This document shows, one piece after another, positions 7,089 through 45,471 of a stretch of DNA of 59,362 nucleotides (within the stretch, counting starts at the first letter, position 1; every line of letters starts with the position of its first letter). Under the pieces are notes generated by a model. That model was not told where the DNA came from and did no database searches. It saw nothing but the letters and a program-made list of their open reading frames with translations. A program made the position numbers and the translations under genes. Source of the DNA: a virus; IMG/VR virus record IMGVR_UViG_3300030106_002463, positions 1 through 59,362 of that record. The stretch is one strand, 5' to 3'.

Positions 7089-7249
7089 TGGCTGATGATG
7101 ATTACAATAGAGAGCGCGATCCTTTTCGCCGCGAGAGCTTTGATAATCTCAATGTGGTCAATCAAAATGTCTCAGATAAACGAGACAACAATCAGATCAT
7201 AAAGCTTGCAATGGTCTTCCCGCCGATAGGTGTAGTGACTCATGGCTGA
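7088..7249 (+). CDS. small acidic/basic linker protein, 53 residues
   Basis: A short gene starts within the TAATG overlap with the hub gene and stops at 7247-7249, overlapping the next ATG at 7242 by 8 bases. The product begins MADDDYNRERDPFRRE and has a short hydrophobic C-terminal stretch (LAMVFPPIGVV). Coupling at both ends and gap-free packing argue that it is real. The function is unknown; it may be a small tail or membrane-contact component. Confidence 0.6.
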   Translation: MADDDYNRERDPFRRESFDNLNVVNQNVSDKRDNNQIIKLAMVFPPIGVVTHG

Positions 7250-7613
7250 TGGCTTCAAGATACTGGCGCAGGCTACCCTGACGAATACAGAAGCCACTAT
7301 CTACACAGTCCCTACTCCCTCGGGTGAACGGTTTTTGACCAGAGGGAATTCGCAAGCTGTTATCTCATCGATCATTCTTTGCTGCACGAATGATGCGGGT
7401 GGTGCCGGTCCGAACTATTCGATACGGGTTAAAAAGTCAGGCGAAGACGCAGACGCCGACAAGCAGATTATATTTAAAGAACAAGCTATTGCTTTAAATG
7501 AAACTGATGTTCTCTCCTTAGGGATAGGGCTTGTATCTGGTGATTCGATAGAAGCAGCCTGCTCCTCTGGCGACGCAGTTCAAATGAATATATTCGGAAC
7601 GGAAGTTCTCTAG
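7242..7613 (+). CDS. small beta-sandwich structural protein
   Basis: The 123-residue protein has alternating beta strands: YTVP near residue 22, SSIILCCTN near 41, YSIRV near 58 and a terminal NIFGTEVL strand. This pattern is common in small phage collar, decoration or fibre-head proteins of marine phages. It overlaps the preceding gene by 8 bases. It is similar in size and strand pattern to the cluster at 56056-58049, though direct homology was not tested. Confidence 0.6.
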   Translation: MADGFKILAQATLTNTEATIYTVPTPSGERFLTRGNSQAVISSIILCCTNDAGGAGPNYSIRVKKSGEDADADKQIIFKEQAIALNETDVLSLGIGLVSGDSIEAACSSGDAVQMNIFGTEVL

Positions 7614-20800: not shown

Positions 20801-23800
20801 TCGACAACCTTCTTATCAAGGATGGTCGAGGGGTTCGGATCGATCCTGGCGGTACGATGCCCTACCGCGCCCAAGGTGGTCTCAAGAACGATATGAGGGA
20901 TGGCCTCTGGGGTCCGACCGCCAGCGACATAGACTCCATGAGAGATCCGGGGATTGCTTTCGAAGCTTCCCAGGTCTTTGACAAGGTTACAGACGAAGAC
21001 TTGGTGAACGGAATCGACAAGGTTATTTCCATTCCTGTCGATGATCTTCGCAAAGCTGTGCGTGACTTTGGCCCCGTTGACCCCGACGAGAACGAAGAAG
21101 CGTTCAATATCCTTGAGGCGAGAAGAAGAGACCTAGCCTCTCGCAAGGCAGATATCGTCGGCGATAGCAGCGCCGCAGCGCAGTTCATCAGCACTAGCCA
21201 GCCCGGAAGAAGGTTCTCGCTGAACGATCTTCAGTGGGAAGGCAAGGGGACTGCGAACCAAGAGACTAGCTCTGTCGAATCCTTCTCCCCCGACAGGGCG
21301 ATGGAAAAAGTCTCCGAGTCTACAAACGTAAAGGGCCGAGAGAGGGATCGCAAAGTAGTCAGAGCGATAAAGGACTTCAAGACCTCTCCCGACTTCGACA
21401 TAAACGAGACCACTCCTAAGGAGTGGGGTCCGATAGATGATATCTCTAGGCCCTCTTATGGTGTCGTGGTCAAGGATGACCAAGGCAATATTGTCCTAAG
21501 AGAAGTCGCGAACTTTTTTGACGGGTATCACTGGAGCATCGCCAAGGGCAGGCTCGACCCCGGAGAATCCCCCTTAGAAACTGCGGTCAGAGAACTCCGA
21601 GAAGAGACCGGAATATCTGAAGACACTGTTCCGAACTTCAGAATCGTCGGAGCCTTGCCGGGGCCGTACTCTTCAGGGTACAGCGACACCTATCTGTATG
21701 TTGCAGAATTCGACAGTCAGCCGGTAGACCAGGGTATCTCCGAATTCGGAAACGACTTACTGGAAGATACTCCTGGGTTTATTCCGAGGGTATCCAAGGA
21801 TAAGGCTACTGTTTCCGCCGATCAGTCGATAATGGATGAGACTTCCATACCGATTGCCCTTGGGGAAAAGCAGCCTCGCAAGCTGTCTGCAACAAACGAG
21901 AGACTTGTTGAGCTAAACATGGAGACTGCCCGCACGAAAGGGGACAGATCTTATGATGTCCTTCAGGCTGCGATCAGTCCTCCCCTCGTACACAAGAGTC
22001 TTTGGGAATCCATAAAGGATGTTCTGTCGGATAGGCCGCTTGCTTGGTTCAGGCAGAAGTTCGTGGACAAGTATGAAGGAATTCGAAGGGCTGTCGAAAA
22101 GGCTAGGGAGATCAGAGGAGACGACAGCTACCTGCTCGCCGGGATGGATGCGCTCAAGGCCGCTTATCTCTCGGACAAGTCCAAGGGCATAACTCAGGAA
22201 GCCATCACATCCGGACAGCTAATCTACAAAGACGGCATAACCAGAGTAGATACCAGCAAGAAGGGCCTTGTCGAAATAATTCAGCCCTTGTTCGATGGGA
22301 ATGTCGATCTGCTGCGCGATTGGCATACATGGATGATCGCGAACAGAGAGGGGAGATTCGAGAGGGAAGGCCGCATGGTCTCGATGACTCCCCAGGAGAG
22401 GCAGACCGTACTCGACACAGCCAGAGCTAACGGCTGGACTGAGTTGTTCGAATCTGTGAATCGTGATTATCAGGAATGGAACGGTGCCATCGTTGACTAC
22501 ATGGTGTCTACCGGCGTAATCAACGAGCAGATGGGTGAAATCTTCAAAAAGTACGGGGACTACATCCCGTTCTACCGAGAGTTCGAAGGGGAAGCTGACG
22601 AGCGTTTGATCGCTGGGATGCAAGATCTTATCGGTGAAGAGCTTGCACAGATGGAAGCCGATGGCCGGATGCCTCCGGTGACTTCGGCTCAAAGGGCCAG
22701 AATGCCAGCCTCCATGTTTGGCTCTTTGACTGGAGTCAAGCCTCCGCGAAAGGCGAAGGGCGGAGAATCGATGGTCGTCGATCCTCTTACCGGGATCATG
22801 CGTAACCTTGAGGCTGCTGTTACCAGCGGGATGAAGAACGTCGCAGCTACAAGGGTCATGGACGATGCGGTTCTCATCGGTATGGCTACTGAAGTAGAGC
22901 CCAACCAGAGAAGAGCAGACACTCATGTTGTCCGGATGAATGGAGAGGACAGATTCTTCAATGTATTCGATCCCCTCCTCCACGATTCTCTCGCTGGTAT
23001 GGGCGAAGGTAGGATTAAATACCTGAACTTCTTCTCTGCCCCCGCTCAGTTCTTGAGAGAGATGGTTACTAGAAGTCCTGACTTTATCATGGCTAACCTC
23101 CTAAGAGACTCCTTGTCCACTTGGACTACTGCCGGGGGGACGAAGCCCGTCGTCGATACCATGAGGAACTTCTTCAGTGGTGAGACGGAAGCTTCCAGAG
23201 CCTTGCAGAGTGCTGGCATTATAAGCGGGTTCGACAATGCGAGAACCAGCAAGGATTTAGCCAAGAAGTTTGGCAAGAAGCTGAGAGATCAAGGCCAGAC
23301 TCCGGGCAAAAAGATCCCGTTCTGGGGTACAGCTACGAAGCTCTGGGAGTGGAGTGGCGATGTCTCTACTAAGTCGGATGCGGCTACTCGTCAGGCTGTT
23401 TATGAGAGTGTCCTTCAGGAGCTTCTTGAGAAGGGTGTGAGCAGAGGTCAGGCCGAGGCTGAAGCGATCTATCAGGCTGCGGAGGTCATCAACTTCTCCC
23501 GGCGCGGTAACTCTGCGCTTGCCAAGATCATCACCGCAGTCATTCCCTTCATGAACGCAAGAATCCAGGGTCTAGACCTTCTCTACAGGGCTGGTACTGG
23601 TAAGTATTCGACCGTCACAAATGAGACTCGGAACAGAGCCTTGATCGGATTCTTGAGCAGGGCCTCGCTCCTTGCGACTACATCTTTGATGTACGCAGGA
23701 ATGGTGGAAGACGAGGACGAGTACAAAGCTGCTCGACCTGAAGAGCGAGACGACAACTGGATTATTCCTGGGTTCGGCGACATGCCGGGGTTCAAGATTC

Positions 23801-24633
23801 CTGTCCCGTTCGAAGTGGGCTTTCTGTTTAAGACTGTCCCTGAGAGGGTCTACCATTACTACAGCGGAGATCAGACTTACAAGCAGAGTGTTGATGCTAT
23901 AAAGAGAGGGGTTGTATCTACCCTTGAGTTCAACGTCTTTGGGCCTCAGATAACGAAACCCGCGATGGAAGCAATGATGAATCATTCCTTCTACACGGGT
24001 AGCACTATCGTGCCTTGGTATCTCACTGATGCCGACCCTGAGTACCAGAAGAGACTCAGCACGAATGAGCTTGCAGTCACGATAGGCGATGCCTTCAATG
24101 CTTCCCCGCTCAAGGTTGAGCATGTGTTGAGGGGGTATACAGGAACTCTAGGAGGTTACATCCTTACCGTTGCAGATTGGGGTATGCGTAACCTGAAGGG
24201 ACTTCCGGCTAGGCCCACCCTCAGGGCAGATCAGATGATGATTGCGAGAAGGTTCTTGCAGGACAGTGAGGGAGCAGAAGGCTTGATGTCTGAGTGGTAC
24301 ACATTCAGAAACTCCACGAGAGGAATCATGAAAGCCTTTAATACTGCCAAGAAAGATGGCGATCTCGAAGCGGCTAGGGAAATATTCGAGAAGAACTCAG
24401 GTGTTGTATCGGTAAATAGTGCGGTAAACCAGATAGATAATCAGTTGACTAGGCTCCGAAGAGCGGAGAGGTTTATCTTGATGGACCCGAAGACTACGCC
24501 AGATCAAAAGGCCGAAGCGGTTAAGAGAATAGACGCATCCAGAAACGCCATACTATCTGCCTCCAAGAAGATCATGGAGACCGCCGACCTCTCTCCGAAG
24601 CTCCCGTTCCCCCTGTCGATACTGGATGATTAG
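14863..24633 (+). CDS. giant polyvalent virion protein with metallopeptidase-, ART-, kinase- and Nudix-like modules
   Basis: At 3256 residues this is one sixth of the genome. Visible modules in order: an HEAIH zinc-peptidase motif at 919-923 with a downstream Glu-rich helix (about 972-987); an ADP-ribosyltransferase-like region (LYRGTS near 1464, a Ser-rich SVSDPSYKTA element, terminal strands near 1546-1560); a kinase-like region with a conserved Lys near 1896 and a WLGNWDV...DNLL...DPGG catalytic-loop-like segment at about 1969-1998; a perfect Nudix box at 2229-2251; and a C-terminal region around 2729-2760 resembling a large-polyvalent-protein domain (SPDFIMANLLRDS). Such proteins are known in phages and conjugative elements as co-injected multi-domain effectors. 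Ejection with the genome is inferred from its place after the transglycosylase. Confidence 0.85.
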   Translation: MAWIDGAENGIQLPDGQVVSFPPGVSEDQAYAQLKSERPELFEKPSGFIPAAQSTITRMAGALSAAPSTVLGGLGDQRALDEAGKIYEQTAREAAEILPEPTQYTDIIEDYKEDGLAEAASTAWTFAREQVGISTPYMVPAMVAGKVGASDLVAGSKLGQRVGTGLARFLPVLRAGATAAPHPLLKAGFGAAFGIGTLATQFFADNLERQYEVASEGGEQTVTPDDISNFAAAAAAGPQAAMDYIFVALTGGIGRGAQLAASQSLKQSLAATTTQAGKATLGRTIGRGAVESLTEFPTELMQTVLERAQAGESISFDDAEFVDEMKATIAGTIPVVGAFGAAGTYRSHRANKKAEENWNKMSDEERRLRKSQDSQREAARQAEIERAERIQSQNEARWRAANEQAARNNDTIEQAALQAQENTPVEIEDVIEAADSRNILVDTDGFRAFVSRQTGGRTPNLKKTTNQERRRIRSILSGLKVQEFVEEDGGAYMPMFTRKQFDNAVEGTRKSKSIDSDVVRQVLGMGVSDTDKAVAATIVKEMETRGYAKREKQKDGTNPLKPRDNAYTEDNYEELLKIGQENGRITQGDFEKVTRKYGRSPYKAFISDMRVRGDLHKTDKVKGVFTPITYQDIQEADDGRTLTVGDYEVTTEPAEGYFVRGPNGEIVDGALSRKDAVESAQILKHRSRSYTIKKNGQAVKTYKNKNNARDAAALIQEADPAARVEVSSNAPVGFTVDKNKSKGFSTIERVNEEGRRTSVLEYGFSPDENAANVLRDERISEITPGLADWDVRSVKEKDRARERLSGFLRARGVRLDPAQREEFTTPDERTSFDPERRIEGDQTQRNQTILNELEQALVDAGIDQDVAAKVVNESVNAEGFFDPNLGGLRTLAVNLNHPTVRNAKTEAELRQAVRGIVNHEAIHAMRDLDLFTMNEWNALKNATLRVKRSDGKTFADWAQETYEGIPGYETKESVEEEAVAEMYRQFYSDQNVRRQIAGQPRTLLERIQRFMERLVNAFSGIGFGDASQVIQGIGKVQARERGQVRTLKDTEALSQRNAAAIRRQVEQRQAEAEQPESREGKKPLKRHSITGPRMLEEFERREEVSDQEFQDQYNEELSRRSVAGTNSTILTVPGDFMPSDMTAKFSIDASNMSDSDLLITKNSNIPEVLEYLNVDADPNEIGEIQDVLATINRAIVGVLSGERERLRALDLNEEDIKKLEGVLKFTRVDYGSNGLHQLEREIATQYGRTDFGGDLIDSYRQFANSAFGYESEPGRILSSMVDEGYVISGVQNDYDFGISFVDPTSRSASEENLTLPVPLTVALHDLGKLRKEIKSGKELSAGTIASLHQRYVSPILNSFKSGSLGAPEGRTILRSLDFSPEGLKSGLKMVSAGASMAAYPFHQSNFENNSTLFEAINNLKTGMSEGDVHKLIDYSLSIPYQRAHAAIFKYIFERTSSDSTTPLYRGTSLSRFLFDISSKEESRSVSDPSYKTALDWAKDKAVGREISIDGLGELSSDANVSDGDFNEGVLLVLPVGSVKQQAPSTARFTSEAGSFTSGTFTVRNIVTYSNPSEFIEAHIKAFGNQIIDAAEIKRKVLNGELNKSDIIDGFIPSVNKGFSGLSQDLFSEIEEDQNSFIEWSGAVDSQASQVNTEEENYLYNDLDILVKVLNLMMADGALDDFNDSYSYYLANKPEAENAFSVSSNGSIQFNDEAYRRYLYDLEEQGKPVSEKTVEFLNRSVRKDPDFRTSLVRAISYLTSGRASESPADLLETPHIPIDPDEPFSSIFSGIGYTQRNAAGNDLGVPREIRFDSEGTRLGRGAIVTLSQTNNEMRSFGGKFLTDENEVTERAPVIGWTRPPKWSIVNVDEEGFQLVGGQTGSNEGGMYRNEETGEQYYVKTPRDPDIGRNEILASKLYQLAGVEVANADPAVRNGEFSVASTFVPGLETDQMLLTEERVPGVQENFAVDAWLGNWDVIGLVFDNLLIKDGRGVRIDPGGTMPYRAQGGLKNDMRDGLWGPTASDIDSMRDPGIAFEASQVFDKVTDEDLVNGIDKVISIPVDDLRKAVRDFGPVDPDENEEAFNILEARRRDLASRKADIVGDSSAAAQFISTSQPGRRFSLNDLQWEGKGTANQETSSVESFSPDRAMEKVSESTNVKGRERDRKVVRAIKDFKTSPDFDINETTPKEWGPIDDISRPSYGVVVKDDQGNIVLREVANFFDGYHWSIAKGRLDPGESPLETAVRELREETGISEDTVPNFRIVGALPGPYSSGYSDTYLYVAEFDSQPVDQGISEFGNDLLEDTPGFIPRVSKDKATVSADQSIMDETSIPIALGEKQPRKLSATNERLVELNMETARTKGDRSYDVLQAAISPPLVHKSLWESIKDVLSDRPLAWFRQKFVDKYEGIRRAVEKAREIRGDDSYLLAGMDALKAAYLSDKSKGITQEAITSGQLIYKDGITRVDTSKKGLVEIIQPLFDGNVDLLRDWHTWMIANREGRFEREGRMVSMTPQERQTVLDTARANGWTELFESVNRDYQEWNGAIVDYMVSTGVINEQMGEIFKKYGDYIPFYREFEGEADERLIAGMQDLIGEELAQMEADGRMPPVTSAQRARMPASMFGSLTGVKPPRKAKGGESMVVDPLTGIMRNLEAAVTSGMKNVAATRVMDDAVLIGMATEVEPNQRRADTHVVRMNGEDRFFNVFDPLLHDSLAGMGEGRIKYLNFFSAPAQFLREMVTRSPDFIMANLLRDSLSTWTTAGGTKPVVDTMRNFFSGETEASRALQSAGIISGFDNARTSKDLAKKFGKKLRDQGQTPGKKIPFWGTATKLWEWSGDVSTKSDAATRQAVYESVLQELLEKGVSRGQAEAEAIYQAAEVINFSRRGNSALAKIITAVIPFMNARIQGLDLLYRAGTGKYSTVTNETRNRALIGFLSRASLLATTSLMYAGMVEDEDEYKAARPEERDDNWIIPGFGDMPGFKIPVPFEVGFLFKTVPERVYHYYSGDQTYKQSVDAIKRGVVSTLEFNVFGPQITKPAMEAMMNHSFYTGSTIVPWYLTDADPEYQKRLSTNELAVTIGDAFNASPLKVEHVLRGYTGTLGGYILTVADWGMRNLKGLPARPTLRADQMMIARRFLQDSEGAEGLMSEWYTFRNSTRGIMKAFNTAKKDGDLEAAREIFEKNSGVVSVNSAVNQIDNQLTRLRRAERFILMDPKTTPDQKAEAVKRIDASRNAILSASKKIMETADLSPKLPFPLSILDD

Positions 24634-28199: not shown

Positions 28200-28586
28200 C
28201 TAGAAGTCGATGTCGCCAAAGCTTTCGTCGCTCGTAGGCGAAGTATCGGGGGCGCTCGGCGCTTCCTTCGAAGGCGCAGGCCGAGAGGTGGACCCTCCTC
28301 CTCCGGTGCCACGGTTGGAAGAACGCCATGAGTTGTCCTCCAAGGTCATCGAGAAGTACGGCTGACCAGTCTCGTCGTCGAGTCGCTTCCAGACAGCGAC
28401 GTTAATGTAAGTCTCCTTACGCTCGCTGAACTCGGAGGCAAGGTTCTTAAGCCACTGTGCTGCGTCCCTGTTCTTCTCATCGGAACGCTGACCAGTCCAA
28501 CCCCCAACCTTGATCGCGCCCCGAAGGTCGGGCTGCTTGTCGTGGGACTTATCGTTCTTGCGAATGTTACCGTGTACCTTAGCCAT
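28200..28586 (-). CDS. single-stranded DNA-binding-like protein
   Basis: The 128-residue protein has a strand-rich N-terminal part with INVAVWKR and PYFSMTLE segments, a Gly/Ser/Pro-rich disordered linker from about residue 88, and an acidic tip ending ESFGDIDF. The acidic C-terminal tip is typical of SSB proteins that recruit partners. The start at 28586 overlaps the stop of the Rad52-like gene (ATGGCTAAG), so the two should be made together. The SSB fold itself is inferred. Confidence 0.6.
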   Translation of the reverse strand: MAKVHGNIRKNDKSHDKQPDLRGAIKVGGWTGQRSDEKNRDAAQWLKNLASEFSERKETYINVAVWKRLDDETGQPYFSMTLEDNSWRSSNRGTGGGGSTSRPAPSKEAPSAPDTSPTSDESFGDIDF

Positions 28587-29265
28587 GAATCTTCTCCTCG
28601 ATTCTCTTAAGTGCGCTTCCGCGCTTTTTGAAAATGTTGGCAACGAAAAGCGCCGCCTCGGAATCCTCTTCCTTTAGTTCATCAACTACACCCTTATTGT
28701 CGGAGTAGTATGTCTTGAGTTCCTTGAAGGTCGTTGCGGAAGTGAAGAGGGCCAGCAAGAGATTCGCTTTCGGATTTGCGTAAGTCCTGTAGTGAAGCTC
28801 AACGAGGGTGTAGATCTCTTCGTCTGCTTCTTTCGTGAATCTCTTGTTGCTCGTTGCGAAAGACTTGCTCTCAAGGATCCCATCGTCGTAGAGATATCTC
28901 CCGACTCCGAACTGCACGGCAGCACGCTTCAGCGCATCACTGTACATCCCCTTCTCACCTTCGAATGTGGACTGAGTACCCACGTCAGACTTGTGTACCC
29001 ATCCCCATCCGTTGAATGAAACGCTTAGCTTGCAGACGCATCGAGTCTCAAGGTCAATATATTCAGTAGTCCACCTACCGATACCAAAGACCTCATCGAG
29101 TCTATCCATAACGTCCCTTGCATCTAGATACAGAAGGGCGGAAGACTTGTTCCCGTTAAAGTTAGAGGCTCTCCACTTAATTTGATTGGGAGAGAACGGA
29201 GCCTTCAGTTGCTTCTCTAAGATTTCAAAGGTCGCGTCGTCAGACTCTTCAGTTTTCGCGGTCAT
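28579..29265 (-). CDS. Rad52-family single-strand annealing protein
   Basis: The 228-residue protein carries the Rad52/Sak core: YLDARDVMDRLDEVFGIGRW, a strand pair with CVCKLSV, KSDVGTQS, and SDALKRAAVQFGVGRYLYD. It should anneal complementary single strands during recombination-dependent replication or repair. A Cas4/RecB-like nuclease overlaps upstream and an SSB-like protein overlaps downstream, giving a complete phage recombinase module. Confidence 0.88.
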   Translation of the reverse strand: MTAKTEESDDATFEILEKQLKAPFSPNQIKWRASNFNGNKSSALLYLDARDVMDRLDEVFGIGRWTTEYIDLETRCVCKLSVSFNGWGWVHKSDVGTQSTFEGEKGMYSDALKRAAVQFGVGRYLYDDGILESKSFATSNKRFTKEADEEIYTLVELHYRTYANPKANLLLALFTSATTFKELKTYYSDNKGVVDELKEEDSEAALFVANIFKKRGSALKRIEEKIHG

Positions 29266-30127
29266 TCAGGAACCCCTTATGAATGTTACAAATATCGTTA
29301 AATGGGCAATAGCTTTTGCATCTGCGATAGCTATCAAATGTTTTGTCGATAACTGACCAGATCTGATCTTCGCCACTCAACTTATCGAAATAGGAGTTAG
29401 CTTTAGTCTTAGTCTGGAAGAGTTTCTTTTCTTCAGAGTTCATGTTGTAGACAGAGTAGACAGTTCCTCCGGGCCAACGTCCCTCATGCGAGCAGGCAGG
29501 GAGGTCATCATCCGGCAGGCTCGCAGCATCCTGCAACGCTTTGATCCGGTCACGGATGAACTGCTCCCTCTCCTCGTAGGGCCACAGAGGGATCTTGATC
29601 GTTACGCCTGGGGTCTTCGGGTAGTTGGTCATCTTCTCGGCCATAGAAATCTTCCAGTCCCGTAGGAATGCGTAGATCTGTAGCCCTTCGACTTCCCTAT
29701 CCGTACAAGTCTCGATGAGCCAAGCGTAGATGTTTAGCTGCTGCTCAAACTTAGTGGTGTCCTTGATGGCAAATACAGTAGTCATCTTATAGTCACCAAT
29801 GGTAACCTTGTTACCAGAGACAACCTGAACATCCATCGCCCCAGAGATTGTTACCCCATCGACCTCGGCGAACAGCCGCTCTTCTGCTATCTCTCCCTCA
29901 GGGGAGTTCTTCTCCATGAGGCTATGGAAGATTGTGCTGACAAACTTCCACGGATTCTCATACGGATCATCAACTATCAGATCGGAATGTCTTTCGTTGA
30001 AATGAACAACTCGGACCTCATCGATCAGTTGAGTGGCGGAGTAATCTGCCTTGCCTCGGGAGTATTCGTCGTTTGAACAGAAAGCAATAAACGACGCCGG
30101 GGCGTTGTGGTTATTCACAATTTTCAT
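29249..30127 (-). CDS. PD-(D/E)XK nuclease, Cas4/RecB-like
   Basis: The 292-residue protein has a PD-(D/E)XK core: GAMDVQ, then GDYKMTT (the D-x-K motif) and QLNIYAWL. Cys residues in CSHEGRW and in CKSYCPFNDIC could bind an iron-sulfur cluster as in Cas4 and AddB. It likely makes 3' or 5' overhangs for the Rad52-like annealase just downstream. An ATG 27 bases upstream is possible, but the chosen start has GGAAAGGGAACC directly before it. Confidence 0.85.
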   Translation of the reverse strand: MKIVNNHNAPASFIAFCSNDEYSRGKADYSATQLIDEVRVVHFNERHSDLIVDDPYENPWKFVSTIFHSLMEKNSPEGEIAEERLFAEVDGVTISGAMDVQVVSGNKVTIGDYKMTTVFAIKDTTKFEQQLNIYAWLIETCTDREVEGLQIYAFLRDWKISMAEKMTNYPKTPGVTIKIPLWPYEEREQFIRDRIKALQDAASLPDDDLPACSHEGRWPGGTVYSVYNMNSEEKKLFQTKTKANSYFDKLSGEDQIWSVIDKTFDSYRRCKSYCPFNDICNIHKGFLNDREN

Positions 30128-30170
30128 TGGTTCCCTTTCCAATGGCGCAATCATAAATCGGATCTTGGAT

Positions 30171-38827: not shown

Positions 38828-39706
38828 CTATTGTTCCAATCCGAACATCTCAAAGTTATTGGCAATCTCGTCAGCCTTATCGGCAATCACATTGCGAAGC
38901 GGCTCGGAGTCCTTCAACTGCCGCTCGTCGAACTGCACCAGATTGTCGAGGATTTCTTTCTGGATGAGAGAAATCATCTCGTCGTCAGTGAAGTTGACCT
39001 TCGAGAGAAGCTCAGCATTTTCCTTTACGTTCGTGACGAGGGTCTTCCTGAATGCGGAGTCGCGTCCCGCTTCGGGATCGTAGTCCCGGAGGGACTTGCT
39101 CATCTTCAGAAGAGACTTGTAAGTAGGCACCAGAGAATCTGTCACCGACTTCTTCAGAGACTTCTCAAGGCTCTCGCGAACGTCATCCACAAACTCGTTG
39201 TCGAAGACATCGAGTAGATCGTCAGGATTCTCAACTGCCCGAGGCTTGATGAGTTCGAAGCTGAAAGATGCTCGGAACTCTTCCTTACTCGGAATCTCAC
39301 CTTCCTTGAAGAGATTCCCGGAGAAGTCCTTCACCTCCTCCAGCATCGAATCGAAACCGAACATAATGGTATCGATCCCAGCCTCAACCGAACGCTCCGC
39401 CATTCGGAAGTCGTTGCAGTATTCCTTAATGACGGGAGCCTTGCCGATACCCTCACCCTTCGCAGCTCGCTCGAAAGGAACAAGCCGCTGCCTGTGGTAC
39501 TTCGCCCACTTGTTTCGCTCCTGCGTGAAGGGGCGGAGATACTTCGCCGGAACAATCCGTCGGGTGAAAGTACCCACGTCAGCCGTTGCGTTATACGCAC
39601 TCGCAACAGCATCGACTCCTCGTTCGTCTTTTGTGCCACCCGTAGGCGCACTCGTTCGATAACCCGCGATCATCAAACCGCGAGACTTGTTTTCGTCAAT
39701 CATCAT
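38828..39706 (-). CDS. protein between MoxR ATPase and VWA partner
   Basis: The 292-residue protein is mostly helical with long charged C-terminal helices (about 190-290). No known domain is recognised. ATG 39706 follows the cassette AAAGGGGTTC and the array promoter at 39731-39759; a longer reading frame extends upstream into that promoter and is rejected. Its fixed place between the MoxR-like and VWA genes suggests it is the third subunit or the substrate of that system. Confidence 0.6.
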   Translation of the reverse strand: MMIDENKSRGLMIAGYRTSAPTGGTKDERGVDAVASAYNATADVGTFTRRIVPAKYLRPFTQERNKWAKYHRQRLVPFERAAKGEGIGKAPVIKEYCNDFRMAERSVEAGIDTIMFGFDSMLEEVKDFSGNLFKEGEIPSKEEFRASFSFELIKPRAVENPDDLLDVFDNEFVDDVRESLEKSLKKSVTDSLVPTYKSLLKMSKSLRDYDPEAGRDSAFRKTLVTNVKENAELLSKVNFTDDEMISLIQKEILDNLVQFDERQLKDSEPLRNVIADKADEIANNFEMFGLEQ

Positions 39707-39730
39707 GAACCCCTTTCGTTCAATGAGGGT

Positions 39731-39759
39731 ATGATAGCATACCCTTGACCCCTTGTCAA
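39731..39759 (-). promoter_or_regulatory. array promoter 1
   Basis: Minus strand TTGACA, 17-bp spacer, TGC plus TATCAT. It drives the three-gene MoxR-associated run from ATG 39706 leftward. A conserved GAACGAAAGGGGTTC block follows, directly before the start codon. Confidence 0.85.
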
Positions 39760-39762
39760 CCC

Positions 39763-40845
39763 CTAGTAGATAAGATGCGTGTTCGTCCTCATCCACTGGA
39801 GGAAACTGTCAGTCTTACCGATGCGAGACTCGACAGCATCGTTAGCGAAAACCGCCCGACAAACCGTCGGGAGTTTATCCACCCACCCGAGGATGTTCTT
39901 CACGTTCGAAGAGTCACCCTTCTCGACAAGCTTCGTGATAGTGGCGAGAGCCACGTCCGCATCAGACTCACCGGGAGCGGGAACATTCATCCCGTTCAGA
40001 ATCCCAGCGATATCAGGAAGGCGAGCGAAGATCCCGAGGAAGGCGACCATGCGGGCCGCATCCTCCTCGCCCAGCTCACCCTTTGCGAATCGGTAGACTC
40101 GCTTGTCATCACCGACCAGACCAATCTCATCTGCGCTTCGAGCATCCTTCCGGGTTCCCGTTACCTCGCAGCCCGAAGACTTGAGGATGTCAGCGAACGC
40201 CGTGATGGATCGCCCCGTAGCCTGCTGCCCGTTCATCCGACCATCGAACTTCTCGATAAGATCCTTATGGAAATTGCAGGCTGCGATGACACGTCGATCG
40301 ACTCCGTTGCGTCGAGCCCACTTCGTCCAGTCCTCGACCGAAGGAAGCCACTCGACACTATTGAACCGATCATCGAGAGCCCGAGGGAGTTTCCTCACAC
40401 CACACCCGTCCTCGATACGGTTAGACGTGGCAACGATATCCCACCCATCGGGAAGCACCTGATCCCGGATGCGACGTTCAGCAGTCAACTGATAGATCGC
40501 AGGGAAGTGAACCTGCTGGGCGTTGCCCAACTCCTCGATAACAAGGATCCCATGAGGCTCGTCCACCGGAAACCAATCCGGTCGGAGCCACGTCGTCACC
40601 TTGTTTTCGATATCGAGATAGGGCATCCCCTTGATCTCGGTAGGATCTTCCATCGAGAGACGGAAGTCTCGGTATCCCATCTCCTCGGGAGAGATCCCAT
40701 GATCCTTCCGGCGGGCCTCGAAAATCTCGCCACCCGGAGCGAGAGACATGGACTTGTTACACCCCGGCGGCCCCTCGACCTTTGCGGCCCGTCCCGCCCG
40801 GAGGACATCAAGTACCTGTTGCGTAGCCTCTTCAGTCAATCCCAT
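39763..40845 (-). CDS. MoxR/CbbQ-like AAA+ ATPase with altered Walker motifs
   Basis: The protein of about 360 residues has Walker A GPPGCNKS (Gly replaced by Asn before Lys), a Walker B-like ILVIEEL (Glu for Asp), sensor 1 DIVATSNR, and the LPRALDDRF segment typical of MoxR families. The altered residues may slow ATP hydrolysis. The start is ATG 40845, with GTG 40848 possible; promoter 2 and AAAGGGG lie just upstream. It forms a gene set with the VWA metallopeptidase-like protein at 37453. Confidence 0.8.
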   Translation of the reverse strand: MGLTEEATQQVLDVLRAGRAAKVEGPPGCNKSMSLAPGGEIFEARRKDHGISPEEMGYRDFRLSMEDPTEIKGMPYLDIENKVTTWLRPDWFPVDEPHGILVIEELGNAQQVHFPAIYQLTAERRIRDQVLPDGWDIVATSNRIEDGCGVRKLPRALDDRFNSVEWLPSVEDWTKWARRNGVDRRVIAACNFHKDLIEKFDGRMNGQQATGRSITAFADILKSSGCEVTGTRKDARSADEIGLVGDDKRVYRFAKGELGEEDAARMVAFLGIFARLPDIAGILNGMNVPAPGESDADVALATITKLVEKGDSSNVKNILGWVDKLPTVCRAVFANDAVESRIGKTDSFLQWMRTNTHLIY

Positions 40846-40874
40846 CACAAACCCCTTTCGTTTGATGAGTCACA

Positions 40875-40903
40875 ATCCTAGCACAAGGTTAACCCCTTGT
40901 CAA
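40875..40903 (-). promoter_or_regulatory. array promoter 2
   Basis: Minus strand TTGACA, 17-bp spacer, TGC plus TAGGAT, then ATCAAACGAAAGGGG before the MoxR-like start codon. The end of the upstream small basic gene overlaps its -35 region. Confidence 0.8.
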
Positions 40904-41038
40904 CCCCTTGTGTTTAATCTTTCTGGTGTACCCCTTGCCACCCTTCTTCGTTCCATGTCGGCCACCCTGAGGGAGTTGCATTTTGCGACTCGCTCTCCGC
41001 ATAGCCTTGGCGATTTCTTCGTTATCCATCTTCGCCAT
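40889..41038 (-). CDS. small basic protein, 49 residues
   Basis: ATG 41038 follows GAAAGGAATGCAAT and encodes MAKMDNEEIAKAMRRASRKM, then a Gly/Lys/Arg-rich tail ending KHKGLTRG. The coding end runs into the promoter of the MoxR gene. A 66-residue frame in the same place is less likely because of its weak start and composition. A nucleic-acid or ribosome contact is possible from charge. Confidence 0.5.
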   Translation of the reverse strand: MAKMDNEEIAKAMRRASRKMQLPQGGRHGTKKGGKGYTRKIKHKGLTRG

Positions 41039-41108
41039 ATTGCATTCCTTTCGACTTCGCCCGATGCGAGCAAGTCCTTCTCTGAAGTAGTTCCTCGCAC
41101 CTCACGAT

Positions 41109-41213
41109 CTAATTCTGGATGATGGATTCAATCAAGTACCAGAGCATCCCTGCCTGAATCACGATCGTGATGATTCCCCATACCATGAGTGCGTCAGCTA
41201 TCCACTTACGCAT
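41109..41213 (-). CDS. micro membrane protein C, 34 residues
   Basis: ATG 41213 overlaps the stop of the preceding micro-gene (AATGCGTAA). The product MRKWIADALMVWGIITIVIQ has a single hydrophobic helix and a short tail. It is the third of three coupled tiny membrane genes downstream of promoter 3. Confidence 0.6.
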   Translation of the reverse strand: MRKWIADALMVWGIITIVIQAGMLWYLIESIIQN

Positions 41214-41295
41214 TGAAGTACCAGAGAACAATCGTTTCGATAAAGATTGCGATGGCTCCCACCACCATTATTGCTTCACTCATTAGGGGGTTCAT
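41206..41295 (-). CDS. micro membrane protein B, 29 residues
   Basis: ATG 41295 overlaps the stop of the first micro-gene by one base (TAATG). The product MNPLMSEAIMVVGAIAIFIE is almost entirely one hydrophobic helix. Coupling on both sides supports translation. Confidence 0.6.
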   Translation of the reverse strand: MNPLMSEAIMVVGAIAIFIETIVLWYFNA

Positions 41296-41375
41296 TACAT
41301 GAACCTCCCCAGCATCAAGTGAATCGAGAGCAGCGTGATATACGCAAACCCCATACACATAAGAAAATCAATCAT
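41295..41375 (-). CDS. micro membrane protein A, 26 residues
   Basis: ATG 41375 follows promoter 3 and the SD-like run AAGGGGGTGAGAGGG. The product MIDFLMCMGFAYITLLSIHL is a single membrane span. It is the first of three overlapping tiny membrane genes; function unknown. Confidence 0.6.
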   Translation of the reverse strand: MIDFLMCMGFAYITLLSIHLMLGRFM

Positions 41376-41404
41376 CCCTCTCACCCCCTTCGTTCGATAG
41401 GACA

Positions 41405-41433
41405 ATGGTAGCATACCGCTACCCCTTTGTCAA
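41405..41433 (-). promoter_or_regulatory. array promoter 3
   Basis: Minus strand TTGACA, 17-bp spacer, TGC plus TACCAT. It precedes the three membrane micro-genes. The conserved TCGAACGAAGGGGG leader lies downstream. Confidence 0.85.
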
Positions 41434-41634
41434 CCCCTCTTCAATCGTTCCGACAATCCGCTTGGCGATATCCTCACCGAAGTAAATGGTAGACACGTTG
41501 CCATCAGACCCGATCAATTCGATTCCAAACCTTTCGACACTTCCGTCATTGAAGACTCGGATTTCACCACTCTCATCACGAGACTTGAAGTCCGTCCCGT
41601 TTTCGAAGTAAACGATCTCGCAATCAGTCTGCAC
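41419..41634 (-). CDS. small beta-rich acidic protein
   Basis: The 71-residue product has repeated beta strands (CEIVYFENGTDF, SGEIRVFNDG) and is acidic. It starts with GTG directly after the previous stop, downstream of AAAGGGGAACT. Its last codons run through the -35 of promoter 3. Function unknown. Confidence 0.6.
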   Translation of the reverse strand: MQTDCEIVYFENGTDFKSRDESGEIRVFNDGSVERFGIELIGSDGNVSTIYFGEDIAKRIVGTIEEGLTKG

Positions 41635-41955
41635 TTAGTTCCCCTTTCCCTCATTGAACCATGCTTCCAGCGAGTACGGTTCCCACTCCTCGACTTCCCC
41701 CATGAGGGAGACAATCTCGGACGCATCGACCTCGATGAAATTGTCCGCGTGATTTTTTCCTCGACACTGTACAAAGAAGTCGTCAGTCACATATCGCCCC
41801 GTGCGCTCGTCAACTACACCGACCTCTACTTTGTCGGGATTGACGTTGCTATCGACGATGGTGATGGTGACGCCGTTGTCGAACGTGGCATACACCTTTG
41901 TGAAAACTTGACGCCCCTCGCATAGCTCGCTGCGCTCAATTCTTACGCTACTCAC
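41635..41955 (-). CDS. small acidic beta-rich protein
   Basis: The 106-residue protein has a beta-rich N-terminal half (VFTKVYATFDNGVTITIVDS) and an acidic helical end. The GTG start at 41955 follows GAAAGGGGTTCAA and promoter 4. It may form a two-gene unit with the following 71-residue protein. No family is recognised. Confidence 0.6.
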   Translation of the reverse strand: MSSVRIERSELCEGRQVFTKVYATFDNGVTITIVDSNVNPDKVEVGVVDERTGRYVTDDFFVQCRGKNHADNFIEVDASEIVSLMGEVEEWEPYSLEAWFNEGKGN

Positions 41956-41983
41956 TTGAACCCCTTTCGTTCAGTATGGGGAG

Positions 41984-42012
41984 AGCATAGCACATGCTCC
42001 CCCCATTGTCAA
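41984..42012 (-). promoter_or_regulatory. array promoter 4
   Basis: Minus strand TTGACA, 17-bp spacer, TGC plus TATGCT, then CTGAACGAAAGGGGTTC before the GTG start at 41955. Confidence 0.85.
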
Positions 42013-42016
42013 CCCC

Positions 42017-42685
42017 CTATCGATTCGTCCACCGCTGGCGGCACACGGGGCCGATACCCAATTCGACAGACTTCTTTTCAGTAAGCTCTCGACCGCAGGC
42101 GGAGCAGGCTCCCGAAGCTTTTCCGTGGTCACGCAGGGTGCCATCGGGGTCAGCGTTCAGAGCGCGTAGCATTTCCACCACACCCTCCGGGCAGTCCTTA
42201 CTCGGGGTGAATTCCCCATCCCGGTCGATCTTCCCGAAATACTTCCGATCCGGCGAGTAGAAATCCTTCACGCCGTTATCGAGGAAGACGCATCCCGGAT
42301 TCTTGGATCGGTCGCCAGCCCTCCGGGCTTTAACTTCGATCCCGTCCACCATGAAGCGAAGCTTCGGGTACTTGATAGACTCCGCAGCCTTATCGAAGAG
42401 TGCGATGACTCCCGGCACGCTTTCGCCACTCACCTTCGGCCCTTCCATGATGGCCTCGTTCGTGTCGAAGAAGTCCCGCAGGAATGCGTCCGCAGTCTCC
42501 CGATTCAGTTGCTCCATCTTCTTTCGGATGATCCACTCCGAGACGTAGGTTTTACCTCCCTCCTCTCGGATCATCTTCTTAGGGATGAAGACTCGTTCCC
42601 GTCGTCCACCATCCTGCACATCGAATGCGATTGCTTTGGCCGACTCCCATACCGGGAGATCCGTTGCCAGAAAATATGCGTTCAT
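42017..42685 (-). CDS. DUF6011-like zinc-ribbon protein
   Basis: The 222-residue protein ends with CSACGRELTEKKS...GIGPVCRQRW, a Cys-rich module like DUF6011 with the typical GIGPVC loop. The N-terminal 150 residues are alpha/beta without a known domain. ATG 42685 follows AAAGGGGTTTACG and promoter 5; the longer frame would include the promoter. Confidence 0.7.
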   Translation of the reverse strand: MNAYFLATDLPVWESAKAIAFDVQDGGRRERVFIPKKMIREEGGKTYVSEWIIRKKMEQLNRETADAFLRDFFDTNEAIMEGPKVSGESVPGVIALFDKAAESIKYPKLRFMVDGIEVKARRAGDRSKNPGCVFLDNGVKDFYSPDRKYFGKIDRDGEFTPSKDCPEGVVEMLRALNADPDGTLRDHGKASGACSACGRELTEKKSVELGIGPVCRQRWTNR

Positions 42686-42716
42686 CGTAAACCCCTTTCG
42701 TTTGTTCGATGAGACA

Positions 42717-42745
42717 AGCTTAGCACAAGCTTGCCACCTTGTCAA
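42717..42745 (-). promoter_or_regulatory. array promoter 5
   Basis: Minus strand TTGACA, 17-bp spacer, TGC plus TAAGCT, followed by ATCGAACAAACGAAAGGGG before ATG 42685. Confidence 0.87.
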
Positions 42746-42753
42746 CCCTGTGG

Positions 42754-43053
42754 CTAAAGCCACTTACCCGCGTCGTCAACCCATCCCCAAGAGACGTAGT
42801 AGTCCCCGTCGAAAGCCACGGCGATCTTCGCGCGTGCCCCTCTGCTTCCATCTACGTTCACGAATCTATCGAGGAAAGCGTTGGCGGCAGCCTCCACGTT
42901 GGCCGCAGGGTCCAGCCCATACTCCCAAGATACCTTGATACTCTGTGCGGGGATGTCCTCCCCCCACTTCTCGCGACTCGCTACGAGATGCTGCCCCCGG
43001 TAGTTCGTAGGTCCGTAGAACTTGACCTTGATACCCGCTCGCGATTCCATCAT
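42754..43053 (-). CDS. small hypothetical protein
   Basis: The 99-residue protein starts MMESRAGIKVKFYGPTNYRG and continues with a helical middle (NVEAAANAFLDRFV) and beta C-terminus (IAVAFDGDYYVSWGWV). The start is fixed by the SD cassette AAAGGGGTTCAT and promoter 6. Unrecognised family. Confidence 0.6.
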   Translation of the reverse strand: MMESRAGIKVKFYGPTNYRGQHLVASREKWGEDIPAQSIKVSWEYGLDPAANVEAAANAFLDRFVNVDGSRGARAKIAVAFDGDYYVSWGWVDDAGKWL

Positions 43054-43079
43054 ATGAACCCCTTTCGTTCGATGAGACA

Positions 43080-43108
43080 AGCTTAGCACATTGTGTGCCC
43101 CTTGTCAA
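43080..43108 (-). promoter_or_regulatory. array promoter 6
   Basis: Minus strand TTGACA, 17-bp spacer, TGC plus TAAGCT, identical -10 to promoters 5 and 8, then CATCGAACGAAAGGGGTTC before ATG 43053. Confidence 0.87.
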
Positions 43109-43112
43109 CCCC

Positions 43113-43337
43113 TTAGAGATACGCGGTGAAATCACCCTGATCGCGCACCTCTACGCTGTAACCCGTCTTCCCGTTTTCATCCCGCAGGATGGAAATCTCA
43201 TATCCTTCGGGGAGTTCCGTGGTTTTCACCACACGGTAAGTCCAGTCGGGATCGTCCCAGTTACACTGGCGTGCGATTTCGCAGGCTTCCCCGTAGGGAA
43301 GAGACGTGGCTCGATTGCTCTCGATGCTGTTATTCAT
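43113..43337 (-). CDS. small acidic hypothetical protein
   Basis: The 74-residue protein has a helical N-terminus (YGEACEIARQCN) and a beta-rich end (YEISILRDENGKTGYSVEVR). It follows promoter 7 and the AAAGGGGTTCACG cassette. Function unknown. Confidence 0.6.
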   Translation of the reverse strand: MNNSIESNRATSLPYGEACEIARQCNWDDPDWTYRVVKTTELPEGYEISILRDENGKTGYSVEVRDQGDFTAYL

Positions 43338-43364
43338 CGTGAACCCCTTTCGTTTGATGAGGAT

Positions 43365-43393
43365 ACGTTAGCACATCCTCACCCCCTTGTCAA
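43365..43393 (-). promoter_or_regulatory. array promoter 7
   Basis: Minus strand TTGACA, 17-bp spacer, TGC plus TAACGT, then CATCAAACGAAAGGGGTTC before ATG 43337. Confidence 0.83.
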
Positions 43394-43492
43394 CTGGGGG
43401 CGAACCCCCTCGGTAGTCTCCCCGGCGGTGGACTCGTCCCATTCGCGTGGGTATTTCACCACGTTACTAACGAGTCCCCCAGAGGAGGGTCT

Positions 43493-43546
43493 GCGTGCTT
43501 TTCACCACGGTGGGTACACGTCATGCGTGCTTTCCACCACGATGGG
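43493..43546. repeat. pair of 22-bp direct repeats
   Basis: GCGTGCTTTTCACCACGGTG (first 20 bases) at 43493 and a copy with two changes at 43525 lie in the non-coding gap 43394-43604. A shorter TTTCACCACG core recurs at about 43454. This could be protein-binding sites or remnants of a promoter unit. The gap also holds a hairpin at 43583-43598 just after the gene ending 43605. Confidence 0.5.
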
Positions 43547-43582
43547 CTGGCATCGTCAGGATGTGGGTACCACCCCACACCG

Positions 43583-43598
43583 ATCCCCGTGAGGGGAT
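43583..43598 (-). terminator. hairpin after the 61-residue gene
   Basis: ATCCCC/GGGGAT stem with a four-base loop lies seven bases beyond the stop of the gene at 43605. Only a weak T-run follows, so termination may be partial. Confidence 0.4.
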
Positions 43599-43604
43599 TT
43601 CGCC

Positions 43605-43790
43605 TTATCGGTTCCGATTCTTCCGGGCGTGCCGTCGCTTGCTCAGCGCGTACTTCGCCGCTCGTCGCGCGAGGGTTCCCCCTTCGGGCTTCACCTTCAT
43701 GCTTGCTCGCGGGATCCCGTAGGCTCGTCCCGGCGGGCACACCTCTACCTCTACCATTCCCGCGTCGATCATTTCCTGAACTGTCATCAT
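43605..43790 (-). CDS. small Arg-rich protein
   Basis: The 61-residue protein has an N-terminal helix (MMTVQEMIDAGMVEVEVCPP) and a strongly basic C-terminus (RRAAKYALSKRRHARKNRNR). ATG 43790 follows AAAGGGGTTC and promoter 8. Possibly nucleic-acid binding by charge; unrecognised family. Confidence 0.6.
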   Translation of the reverse strand: MMTVQEMIDAGMVEVEVCPPGRAYGIPRASMKVKPEGGTLARRAAKYALSKRRHARKNRNR

Positions 43791-43818
43791 GAACCCCTTT
43801 CGTTCGTCGATGGTGGGG

Positions 43819-43847
43819 AGCTTAGCACATCGAAGCCCCCTTGTCAA
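43819..43847 (-). promoter_or_regulatory. array promoter 8
   Basis: Minus strand TTGACA, 17-bp spacer, TGC plus TAAGCT, then CGACGAACGAAAGGGGTTC before ATG 43790. Confidence 0.87.
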
Positions 43848-43855
43848 CCCCTAGT

Positions 43856-44068
43856 CTACGGTCGGACTCGGCACCCGTGTTCGTCGTACTTCTGGACGAA
43901 GCACTTTCGCCCCAGCTTCGCGAAGGCATCAACAATCTGCTCCGCCTGCTCGTGGGTGTAGTTCACCCCAAGATCAGCCCAGCCTCCCCGAAGGGTGTCC
44001 TGACCTTCGTGGCCTCCCACCTCAGTGAAATCCACGCCCTCAGCCCAAACCTTGATTCGCAGTCTCAT
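43856..44068 (-). CDS. small hypothetical protein
   Basis: The 70-residue protein (MRLRIKVWAEGVDFTEVGGH) has a C-terminal EQAEQIVDAFAKLGRKCFVQ helix-strand unit. The start is fixed by GAAAGGGATCTATC and promoter 9. Function unknown. Confidence 0.6.
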   Translation of the reverse strand: MRLRIKVWAEGVDFTEVGGHEGQDTLRGGWADLGVNYTHEQAEQIVDAFAKLGRKCFVQKYDEHGCRVRP

Positions 44069-44095
44069 GATAGATCCCTTTCGTTCGATGGGGAT

Positions 44096-44124
44096 ACAGT
44101 AGCACACTGTCGCCCCTTTGTCAA
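44096..44124 (-). promoter_or_regulatory. array promoter 9
   Basis: Minus strand TTGACA, 17-bp spacer, TGC plus TACTGT, then CATCGAACGAAAGGG before ATG 44068. Confidence 0.83.
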
Positions 44125-44127
44125 CCC

Positions 44128-44286
44128 CTACCTGACGAGCGTGGCTTCCTGCCCACAGTCCCGACACTTCCGCACCTCGGGCTCGTTCCGGAGTCCACCC
44201 CGGCACCAGAGCATTGCGTTGTAATTCCCACACTTCGGGCAGGACGGCTCGTCATTGTTTTCGTAAGAGCAAGTCATCGTTTCCAA
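44128..44286 (-). CDS. small zinc-ribbon protein
   Basis: The 52-residue product has CPKCGNYNAMLWC and KCRDCGQEA, a four-cysteine zinc ribbon. The TTG start at 44286 lies exactly seven bases after GAAAGGG, the same spacing as the start of the gene before it. An ATG at 44277 is the alternative. It follows promoter 10. Function unknown; perhaps a regulator. Confidence 0.6.
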   Translation of the reverse strand: METMTCSYENNDEPSCPKCGNYNAMLWCRGGLRNEPEVRKCRDCGQEATLVR

Positions 44287-44314
44287 GACAGATCCCTTTC
44301 GTTTGATGGGGAGA

Positions 44315-44343
44315 AGATAGCACATCCTCGCCCCTTTGTCAAC
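44315..44343 (-). promoter_or_regulatory. array promoter 10
   Basis: Minus strand TTGACA, 17-bp spacer, TGC plus TATCTT, then CATCAAACGAAAGGG before the TTG at 44286. Confidence 0.84.
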
Positions 44344-44400
44344 CCCGTGGGCTTTCGCCCTCGTTCGGGGAGCCTTTGGCTGCCCCTTCGCCCGTAGCCC

Positions 44401-44532
44401 CGTCACGTCTCGCGTGGTGCGCTTCGTTCGATGGGGGCATTGTAGCCTATCGGTCGCCCCTTGTCAACCCCTGATCCAGCGGGGTGCCGGTGGCTCCCCT
44501 ACGAACGTCGCTTCGTCACGTCTCGCGTGGTG
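44401..44532. repeat. 19-bp perfect repeat in two promoter leaders
   Basis: CGTCACGTCTCGCGTGGTG occurs at 44401-44419 and 44514-44532, each just downstream (leftward) of an array promoter. No start codon with an SD lies behind either promoter, so the leaders look like non-coding RNA or a control element. It occupies most of the 352-bp gap 44287-44638. Confidence 0.7.
44439..44467 (-). promoter_or_regulatory. array promoter 11
   Basis: Minus strand TTGACA, 17-bp spacer, TACAAT, then CATCGAACGAAGCG and the 19-bp leader repeat. No coding gene follows before promoter 10, so the transcript may be a short RNA or read through. Confidence 0.78.
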
Positions 44533-44552
44533 TGTGTCGCTCGATGGGGGGA

Positions 44553-44580
44553 ATGATAGCACACAGTTGCCACTTGTCAA
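44553..44580 (-). promoter_or_regulatory. array promoter 12
   Basis: Minus strand TTGACA, 16-bp spacer, TGC plus TATCAT. The leader carries the second copy of the 19-bp repeat. It is the rightmost and first promoter of the leftward array. Confidence 0.78.
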
Positions 44581-45148: not shown

Positions 45149-45471
45149 GCGCAGGCGTGCGTCCGTCTGTCGTATACACTGTGTTTTGCTCATTACACCA
45201 CCAATCCCCAATATTCCTCCTAGTGTTTTAGGAATCGCCGCCTAGGAATTCTCAGGAAACACCTATAGGAGTCCCATGTGCAAAAATTTTTCACAAAAAA
45301 TTTACACAAGACTTCAAATATTACTATTGACAGAGGAATCCTACCCCTATAGAATTCTATAGGCGTTAGAATTCGATACATATAGGACTTGGTAAGAGTT
45401 TCGAGCCCACTTGATGTGGGCTCTGGCAGACTAGGATCCTAAGGCCATAGAATCCTATAGGGGCGATCCCG
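45149..45471. other. non-coding control region (operators, promoter, AT-rich tract)
   Basis: No gene is apparent in these 323 bases. They hold an AT-rich stretch (45273-45303), the rightward promoter at 45327, palindrome copies at 45262-45269, 45346-45363 and 45444-45461, and a perfect 8-bp hairpin (about 45404-45424) without a T-run. It may be a control hub or a replication origin candidate; nothing here decides which. Confidence 0.5.
45327..45363 (+). promoter_or_regulatory. rightward promoter overlapping an 18-bp perfect palindrome
   Basis: TTGACA (45327-45332), 17-bp spacer, TAGAAT (45350-45355). The perfect palindrome CCTATAGAATTCTATAGG (45346-45363) covers the -10 box, so bound protein would block or remodel initiation. 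The same motif sits in the leftward promoter at 30927. Confidence 0.75.

Follow-up and report, generated by a model that had tools for sequence, protein, structure and literature searches.

In positions 39,731-44,580 of IMG/VR virus record IMGVR_UViG_3300030106_002463, all 59,362 bases of which were analysed (hereafter the window), twelve minus-strand cassettes follow one another, each built of a -35 box TTGACA, a 16- or 17-bp spacer and a -10 box. This array is probably a hyperplastic early-gene region in which a repeated sigma70 promoter and ribosome-site cassette of about 55 bp doubles as a recombination joint for swapping the cargo genes behind it. This reading draws on the cassettes and their confinement to the array, on changes of cargo and a chimeric cassette in a related phage, on the complementarity of the arms of a hairpin within the cassettes, and on a hammerhead ribozyme found in three genomes.

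The exact TTGACA boxes begin, on the minus strand, at 44580, 44467, 44342, 44124, 43847 and 43393 (cassettes U1-U6) and at 43108, 42745, 42012, 41433, 40903 and 39759 (U7-U12). A preliminary description of this DNA had reported twelve such boxes lying 17 bp (in one case 16 bp) from a -10 that nearly always has TGC in front of it, and both points hold, the spacing being 17 bp in 11 of the 12 cassettes and 16 bp in U1, with TGC directly 5' of the -10 in all cassettes except U2 (GGC). The AGGGG that it described as conserved after the -35 stands as a GGGG run in ten cassettes and fails in U1 (AGTGG) and U8 (AGGTGG). Similarly, the block that contains the Shine-Dalgarno (SD) sequence does reach the start codon in ten of the twelve units, units 1 and 2 having no open reading frame (ORF). 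The consensus reads (A)GGGG-TTGACA-A(N)GGGG-(N)-TGTGC-TANNNT-(6-8 nt)-ATCGAACGAAAGGGGTTC-start. A 29-base cassette pattern has 11 matches in the window, every one inside the array and on the minus strand, whereas 100 dinucleotide-preserving shuffles averaged 0.09 matches and never exceeded 1, and none of the remaining loose TTGACA matches in the window has a matching -10/SD block. All twelve cassettes are intergenic. A simple promoter scan with a threshold of 9 of 12 consensus bases listed 7 of the 12. Eight units are directly preceded by a coding gene; there, either the -35 begins 3-8 nt past the stop codon or the ORF enters the cassette by no more than 15 nt, so that each cassette exactly fills its intergenic space. 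Transcription is predicted to start at the A of a CAT (of TAT in U10), 7 nt past the -10 in most units, with 5' untranslated regions of 18-25 nt. In array order, the predicted start positions are 44545, 44432, 44307, 44089, 43811, 43358, 43073, 42710, 41977, 41398, 40866 and 39724. Start-site and SD spacing fit a predicted sigma70 promoter followed by a ribosome site, a role for the cassettes that follows from sequence alone.

Three related contigs (L056, L024 and L178) have the same array, and two of them, L056 and L024, whose ends overlap, are apparently fragments of one phage, here called B, whose cassettes and cargo are numbered B1, B2 and so on. The units of the window are listed below in array order, all on the minus strand; dyad denotes the inverted repeat discussed further on.

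44553-44580, minus: cassette U1 promoter, TTGACA-16-TATCAT, no ORF
44468-44545, minus: predicted non-coding RNA unit 1 (no ORF; homology to unit 2 and to B1/B2 of L056; fold)
44439-44467, minus: cassette U2 promoter, TTGACA-17-TACAAT, no ORF
44343-44432, minus: predicted non-coding RNA unit 2 (no ORF; homology; fold)
44287-44342, minus: cassette U3, with promoter, dyad (44308-44334), leader and SD
44128-44286, minus: cargo 3, zinc-ribbon-like protein of 52 amino acids (aa), TTG start
44069-44124, minus: cassette U4, with promoter, dyad, leader and SD
43856-44068, minus: cargo 4, 70 aa, 43% identical to the B3 cargo
43791-43847, minus: cassette U5
43605-43790, minus: cargo 5, basic protein, 61 aa, 72% identical over 39 aa to the B4 cargo
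43541-43605, minus: type II hammerhead ribozyme by score (Rfam RF02276, 45.9 bits)
43397-43540, minus: non-coding stretch following the hammerhead, structured by predicted fold and conserved in L056
43338-43393, minus: cassette U6
43113-43337, minus: cargo 6, 74 aa
43054-43108, minus: cassette U7
42754-43053, minus: cargo 7, 99 aa
42686-42745, minus: cassette U8, dyad with a two-sided T-A to G-C change in B8
42017-42685, minus: cargo 8, DUF6011 protein, 222 aa, 95% identical in L024 and 51% in L178
41956-42012, minus: cassette U9, the strongest dyad (-23.4 kcal/mol as RNA)
41635-41955, minus: cargo 9a, 106 aa
41419-41634, minus: cargo 9b, 71 aa, its ORF extending 15 nt into cassette U10
41376-41433, minus: cassette U10
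41109-41375, minus: cargo 10a-c, hydrophobic peptides of 26, 29 and 34 aa encoded by three overlapping ORFs
40889-41038, minus: cargo 10d, basic protein, 49 aa
40846-40903, minus: cassette U11
39763-40845, minus: cargo 11, AAA/MoxR-like ATPase, 360 aa, phrog_1297
39707-39759, minus: cassette U12
38828-39706, minus: cargo 12, 292 aa, 73% identical in L024

Most cargo matches the preliminary picture of unrelated small genes or short runs; units 1 and 2 are RNA-like instead, and the proteins of units 8, 11 and 12 reach 222, 360 and 292 aa, units 11 and 12 being genes of full size. The peptides of cargo 10a-c look like single-span membrane peptides, and a VWA/metallopeptidase-like gene (DUF2201) comes after cargo 12. 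Comparison of the cargo with PADLOC gave no informative match. A protein search with cargo 7 as query found no match, and its weak match to Cas3 (E 8e-4, 47 of 897 profile positions) was taken as chance.

The two units that lack ORFs, the hammerhead, the cassette hairpin and the closest functional precedent, which lies in T4-type phages and is considered below, had all been overlooked in that description. Units 1 and 2 share homology with one another and with the opening two units of L056, and probably encode small RNAs. Unit 1 is predicted to form hairpins CACG-CGAGA-CGTG and GGGGAGCC..GGCACCCC, and the homologous units have hairpins in common; folding significance is modest (z of -3.0 for U2 and about 0 for the others), giving partial support to a structure. 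A hairpin similar to the CACG-loop-CGTG of these units (44343-44545, minus strand) also occurs downstream of the hammerhead and, in another contig, L105, within repeated leaders.

By score, the ribozyme of unit 5 is a clear type II hammerhead: the Hammerhead_II model (RF02276, gathering cut-off 37 bits) scores 45.9 bits in the window, 47.3 in L056 (903-967, minus strand) and 41.4 in L178 (6943-7008, plus strand), exceeding the cut-off in all three genomes with a conserved core. It overlaps the last base of the cargo 5 stop codon, and self-cleavage is predicted between 43582 and 43581, as placed by alignment. Together with the structured stretch 3' of it, it folds with a z of -3.6. In all three genomes the hammerhead has the same place, directly following a small array gene, though the neighbouring gene diverges. 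Intergenic phage hammerheads are already known from PaP3 and Bcep176 (PMC3088659); the copy in the window differs in lying inside a promoter-cassette array, a placement not met in the literature examined.

The case for cargo exchange comes from the relatives. By cargo orthology, the array of phage B runs RNA, RNA, U4, U5 with hammerhead, U3, a new gene, U7 and U8, then a U9-type unit with partly new genes, U11 and U12, the U10 cassette being absent. The zinc-ribbon unit 3 has accordingly moved and lies after the hammerhead, and the place of cargo 6 is taken, behind a near-identical promoter, by a 97-aa gene unrelated to it. Identity between orthologous cargo ranges from 43% (U4) to 95% (U8), and the last units (DUF6011 protein, MoxR-type ATPase and unit 12) are stable between the two phages. 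The left half of cassette B5 has one mismatch to U6 (next best, 5) and its right half one mismatch to U3 (next best, 5); the cargo behind B5 is that of U3, and a U6-type left half comes after the hammerhead unit in both phages. B5 therefore reads as a chimera with its breakpoint inside the cassette, for which a crossover at that point is the simplest account. L178, with a TerL 79% identical to that of the window, shows this layout at nine promoter sites and has a leader of its own (TGAGAnAAGGGGAAC-like) and a hammerhead behind the second coding unit; the DUF6011 gene is retained at 51% identity and the ATPase at about 50%, and its other cargo has no detectable match to window cargo. Whether relatives keep the cassette as cargo changes was a check proposed in the preliminary description, and both B and L178 behave in this way; the role in cargo exchange that we infer for the cassettes draws on these two.

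An unexpected feature is a covarying hairpin inside the promoter. In most cassettes the spacer and the region past GTGCT form an inverted repeat covering the spacer and the -10 (in U9, GGGGGGAGCAT-GTGCT-ATGCTCTCCCC); U1, U2 and U11 have only weak dyads. The outer arms keep the sequence GGGG/CCCC and a constant spacing. The inner arms vary among window and B cassettes yet remain complementary, with no common arm sequence. In a swap test, in which left halves were joined to right halves of other cassettes and folding stability was compared, the observed cassettes were more stable both in the window (-153.6 versus -114.9 +/- 8.4 kcal/mol, P=2e-5) and in B (-153.0 versus -110.3 +/- 9.8 kcal/mol, P=2.5e-5), two P values that are not independent since the phages share ancestry. 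When Watson-Crick pairs were counted with the register held fixed, P was 0.06 for the window taken by itself and 0.0003 for the two genomes combined, the weaker window result reflecting cassettes with the dyad in another register. Among 17 cassettes aligned in a common register, 82.4% of cells are paired, compared with 74.8 +/- 1.8 in shuffles, with a covariation of 0.346 (0 of 500 shuffles), and slid versions score far lower; because this set was selected and includes orthologues, it serves as an illustration and not as a substitute for the swap test. Between U8 and B8, a T-A pair of the dyad has changed on both sides to G-C. Predicted folding of the minus strand is also more stable within the cassettes than around them (mean -12.9 versus -7.8 kcal/mol per 40 nt).

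No signal of arm complementarity came from three other phage promoter arrays (P 0.3-0.8), and a fourth, in L057, gave one (P=0.003) with half-sites conserved in sequence. The latter (5100-7375, plus strand) belongs to an unrelated AT-rich phage, whose per-gene promoters with GGGATA..TATCCC dyads and a repeated AACAGAAAGGA leader form a parallel case.

The dyad could instead be an operator, at which a dimer of a phage repressor or regulator bound across each -10 would switch the whole set, gene shuffling being incidental. Its position on the -10 is ideal for repression, the spacing of its conserved outer arms does not vary, L178 and the unrelated L057 array have half-sites of conserved sequence, and binding of a regulator has been proposed for the inverted repeats of cluster K mycobacteriophages (PMC11373665). 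A sequence-specific dimer would have no need, however, of inner arms that vary from copy to copy and stay complementary, as they do in the window and in B, and in U1, U2 and U11 it would find only weak dyads. We regard an operator as possible, if on the unlikely side.

Quasi-palindrome correction, in which template switching during replication improves imperfect palindromes, is a known mutational process, and arm complementarity could be its by-product, a hairpin without selected function. Such correction yields varied, self-complementary arms and affects both strands equally, in keeping with the outcome of a test for an RNA strand by G-U versus A-C mismatches, which found no sense-strand G-U excess over permutation once composition was allowed for. 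It accounts poorly for a dyad that recurs at the same cassette position in three genomes, and strong dyads are rare elsewhere, perfect stems of at least 9 bp numbering two in the whole window in a search blind to the imperfect stems typical of cassettes. This explanation appears quite unlikely. Least likely is tandem duplication of one ancestral gene and leader whose coding part diverged beyond recognition without cargo insertion or exchange. One of the two non-coding units is clearly a duplicate of the other, and the cassettes are paralogous on any account, but the cargo, which ranges from RNAs and hydrophobic peptides to a zinc ribbon, a DUF6011 protein and an AAA ATPase, shares no family, and in phage B one unit has moved, another has been replaced and a cassette is chimeric.

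Two further candidates were rejected. Hairpin promoters read by an N4-type virion RNA polymerase were considered because hairpins are present, N4-like phages appear among matches to the ATPase and a virion-type protein of 3,256 aa is encoded; that protein (14863-24633, plus strand) is a giant polyvalent protein with LPD38 and NUDIX domains and no polymerase match in Pfam, PHROGs or PDB, and the sites are near-consensus sigma70 promoters. Integron-like attC sites were dropped as the core motif does not fit; no recombinase search was made for this idea. Identity counts bearing on a genome-specific homogenisation of leaders were blurred by indels.

Under the favoured reading of an early-gene region with exchangeable cargo, each cassette would combine a near-consensus sigma70 promoter, mostly with an extended -10, a leader of about 21 nt with a strong SD and, mostly, the inverted repeat. 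Host polymerase would transcribe one small gene or mini-operon, presumably early, from each promoter, and two promoters would give structured RNAs. With every inter-unit joint the same sequence, recombination between cassettes would allow cargo to be lost, moved or replaced without breaking expression. Pairs of annealing protein and exonuclease recombine short, imperfect homologies, and the phage's own pair would be the likely agent:

28582-29265, minus: Rad52/Erf-like single-strand annealing protein, candidate recombinase for cassette exchange
29252-30154, minus: phage exonuclease, putative partner of the annealing protein

In RNA read through from one cistron to the next, the hairpin may act as a self-contained structure that marks or protects the 3' end of the upstream message, and the hammerhead would cut the message just past cargo 5.

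Several observations weigh against this account. The one clear chimeric junction illustrates recombination at cassettes and does not establish its frequency. L091 and L094, whose TerL proteins (84-85%) are closer to that of the window than the one in L178, lack cassettes of this kind beside TerL; the array is therefore patchy in distribution and not essential to the group. In L178 the dyad signal is weak (P=0.04) and conservation of the half-sites is higher, a pattern that would also suit an operator. No intrinsic terminators were scored among the cassette hairpins on the minus strand, and predicted folding indicates that the hairpin leaves access to the SD unchanged; a role as an SD lock in read-through RNA was rejected, the mean unpaired SD being 0.58 in the unit's own transcript, 0.60 in read-through and 0.57 with shuffled arms.

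A more specific proposal, which we make tentatively and hold somewhat doubtful, is that the cassette is a structure-coded joint, a promoter doubling as a hairpin that is kept by shape and not by sequence, the arms peculiar to each joint insulating neighbouring messages as cargo is swapped through the conserved -35, -10 and SD blocks. If true, a single element would unite the functions of promoter, insulator and recombination site, a combination previously undescribed in phages.

Elsewhere in the window, a rightward promoter-like site (45327-45366, plus strand; TTGACA-17-TAGAAT) has its -10 within the palindrome CCTATAGAATTCTATAGG, a possible operator, and is conserved in L056 (about 2470, plus strand). 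The TerL of the window has its best matches in phages of roughly 57-65 kb, 023Pt_psg01 and Pelagibacter phage HTVC027P among them. A TerL scan of genome contigs found only contigs of metagenome-assembled genomes from mixed phyla, giving no host assignment. L105 (TerL 74%) has a different start-associated repeat with a hairpin leader, GCACGCAAAGACGTGCAACGAAAG; between 300 and 2030 (minus strand), it combines repeated leaders of this kind with long covarying palindromes (GCATTGAATG..CATTCAATGC and GCATCGAACGC..GCGTTCGATGC). A first pattern scan of viral contigs matched mostly unrelated phages. L015, L078, L080 and L185 are other phages with many TTGACA/TATAAT-type promoters before successive small genes.

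Among known systems, T4-type phages reportedly carry promoter-early stem-loop (PeSL) cassettes (Arbiol 2010, doi 10.1093/gbe/evq006; Comeau 2014, doi 10.1093/gbe/evu129; cited in PMC4503421 and PMC3950731), in which the stem-loop is described as a terminator. Like PeSL, the window repeats a sigma70-type promoter and stem-loop, here by sequence match, in the intergenic spaces of a region rich in small genes, and its modules appear shuffled by recombination between copies, as in the moved zinc-ribbon unit and chimeric B5. Unlike PeSL, its stem-loop overlaps the promoter and is not recognisable as a terminator, its cassette includes leader and SD, its array includes a ribozyme and RNA units, and the record is of 59 kb, from an unrelated phage group. 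The preliminary description aptly likened the cassettes to mycobacteriophage start-associated repeats of different sequence. The extended start-associated sequence (ESAS) of cluster K is described as a SigA-like promoter with an inverted repeat upstream of the SD-bearing start-associated sequence (SAS) (PMC11373665). Both systems have a repeated SigA-like promoter with 17-18 bp spacing, an imperfect inverted repeat and a conserved SD block a few bases from the start codon, and serve non-structural genes only (PMC3203893, PMC11373665). The 13-bp GGGATAGGAGCCC that precedes the start codon in cluster K does not stand at that place in the cassettes, where the leader is ATCGAACGAAAGGGGTTC; the ESAS repeat has one consensus per subcluster, whereas inner arms in the window and B vary between copies; and SAS and ESAS are spread over the right half of the genome, not gathered in one contiguous array. 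In the haloarchaeal virus HGTV-1, a conserved TATA-box and inverted-repeat motif precedes most ORFs in one arm (PMC3950731), a similar pairing of promoter and inverted repeat proposed to serve regulation and shuffling, although that promoter is archaeal and the virus unrelated. Finally, shared regulatory sequences of early genes have been used to find anti-defence genes in archaeal viruses (PMC11065993); there, too, nearly identical strong promoters stand before many unrelated small genes, but the core promoters are archaeal and anti-defence function was tested in those viruses.

The array would thus work like PeSL and ESAS/SAS, meeting neither definition in full. Promoter-plus-stem-loop shuffling, known in T4-type phages and proposed for a haloarchaeal virus, would extend to an unrelated group of uncultured phages. 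The shared cassette may also offer a simple sequence handle for fast-changing small early genes, which in archaeal viruses have included anti-defence genes.

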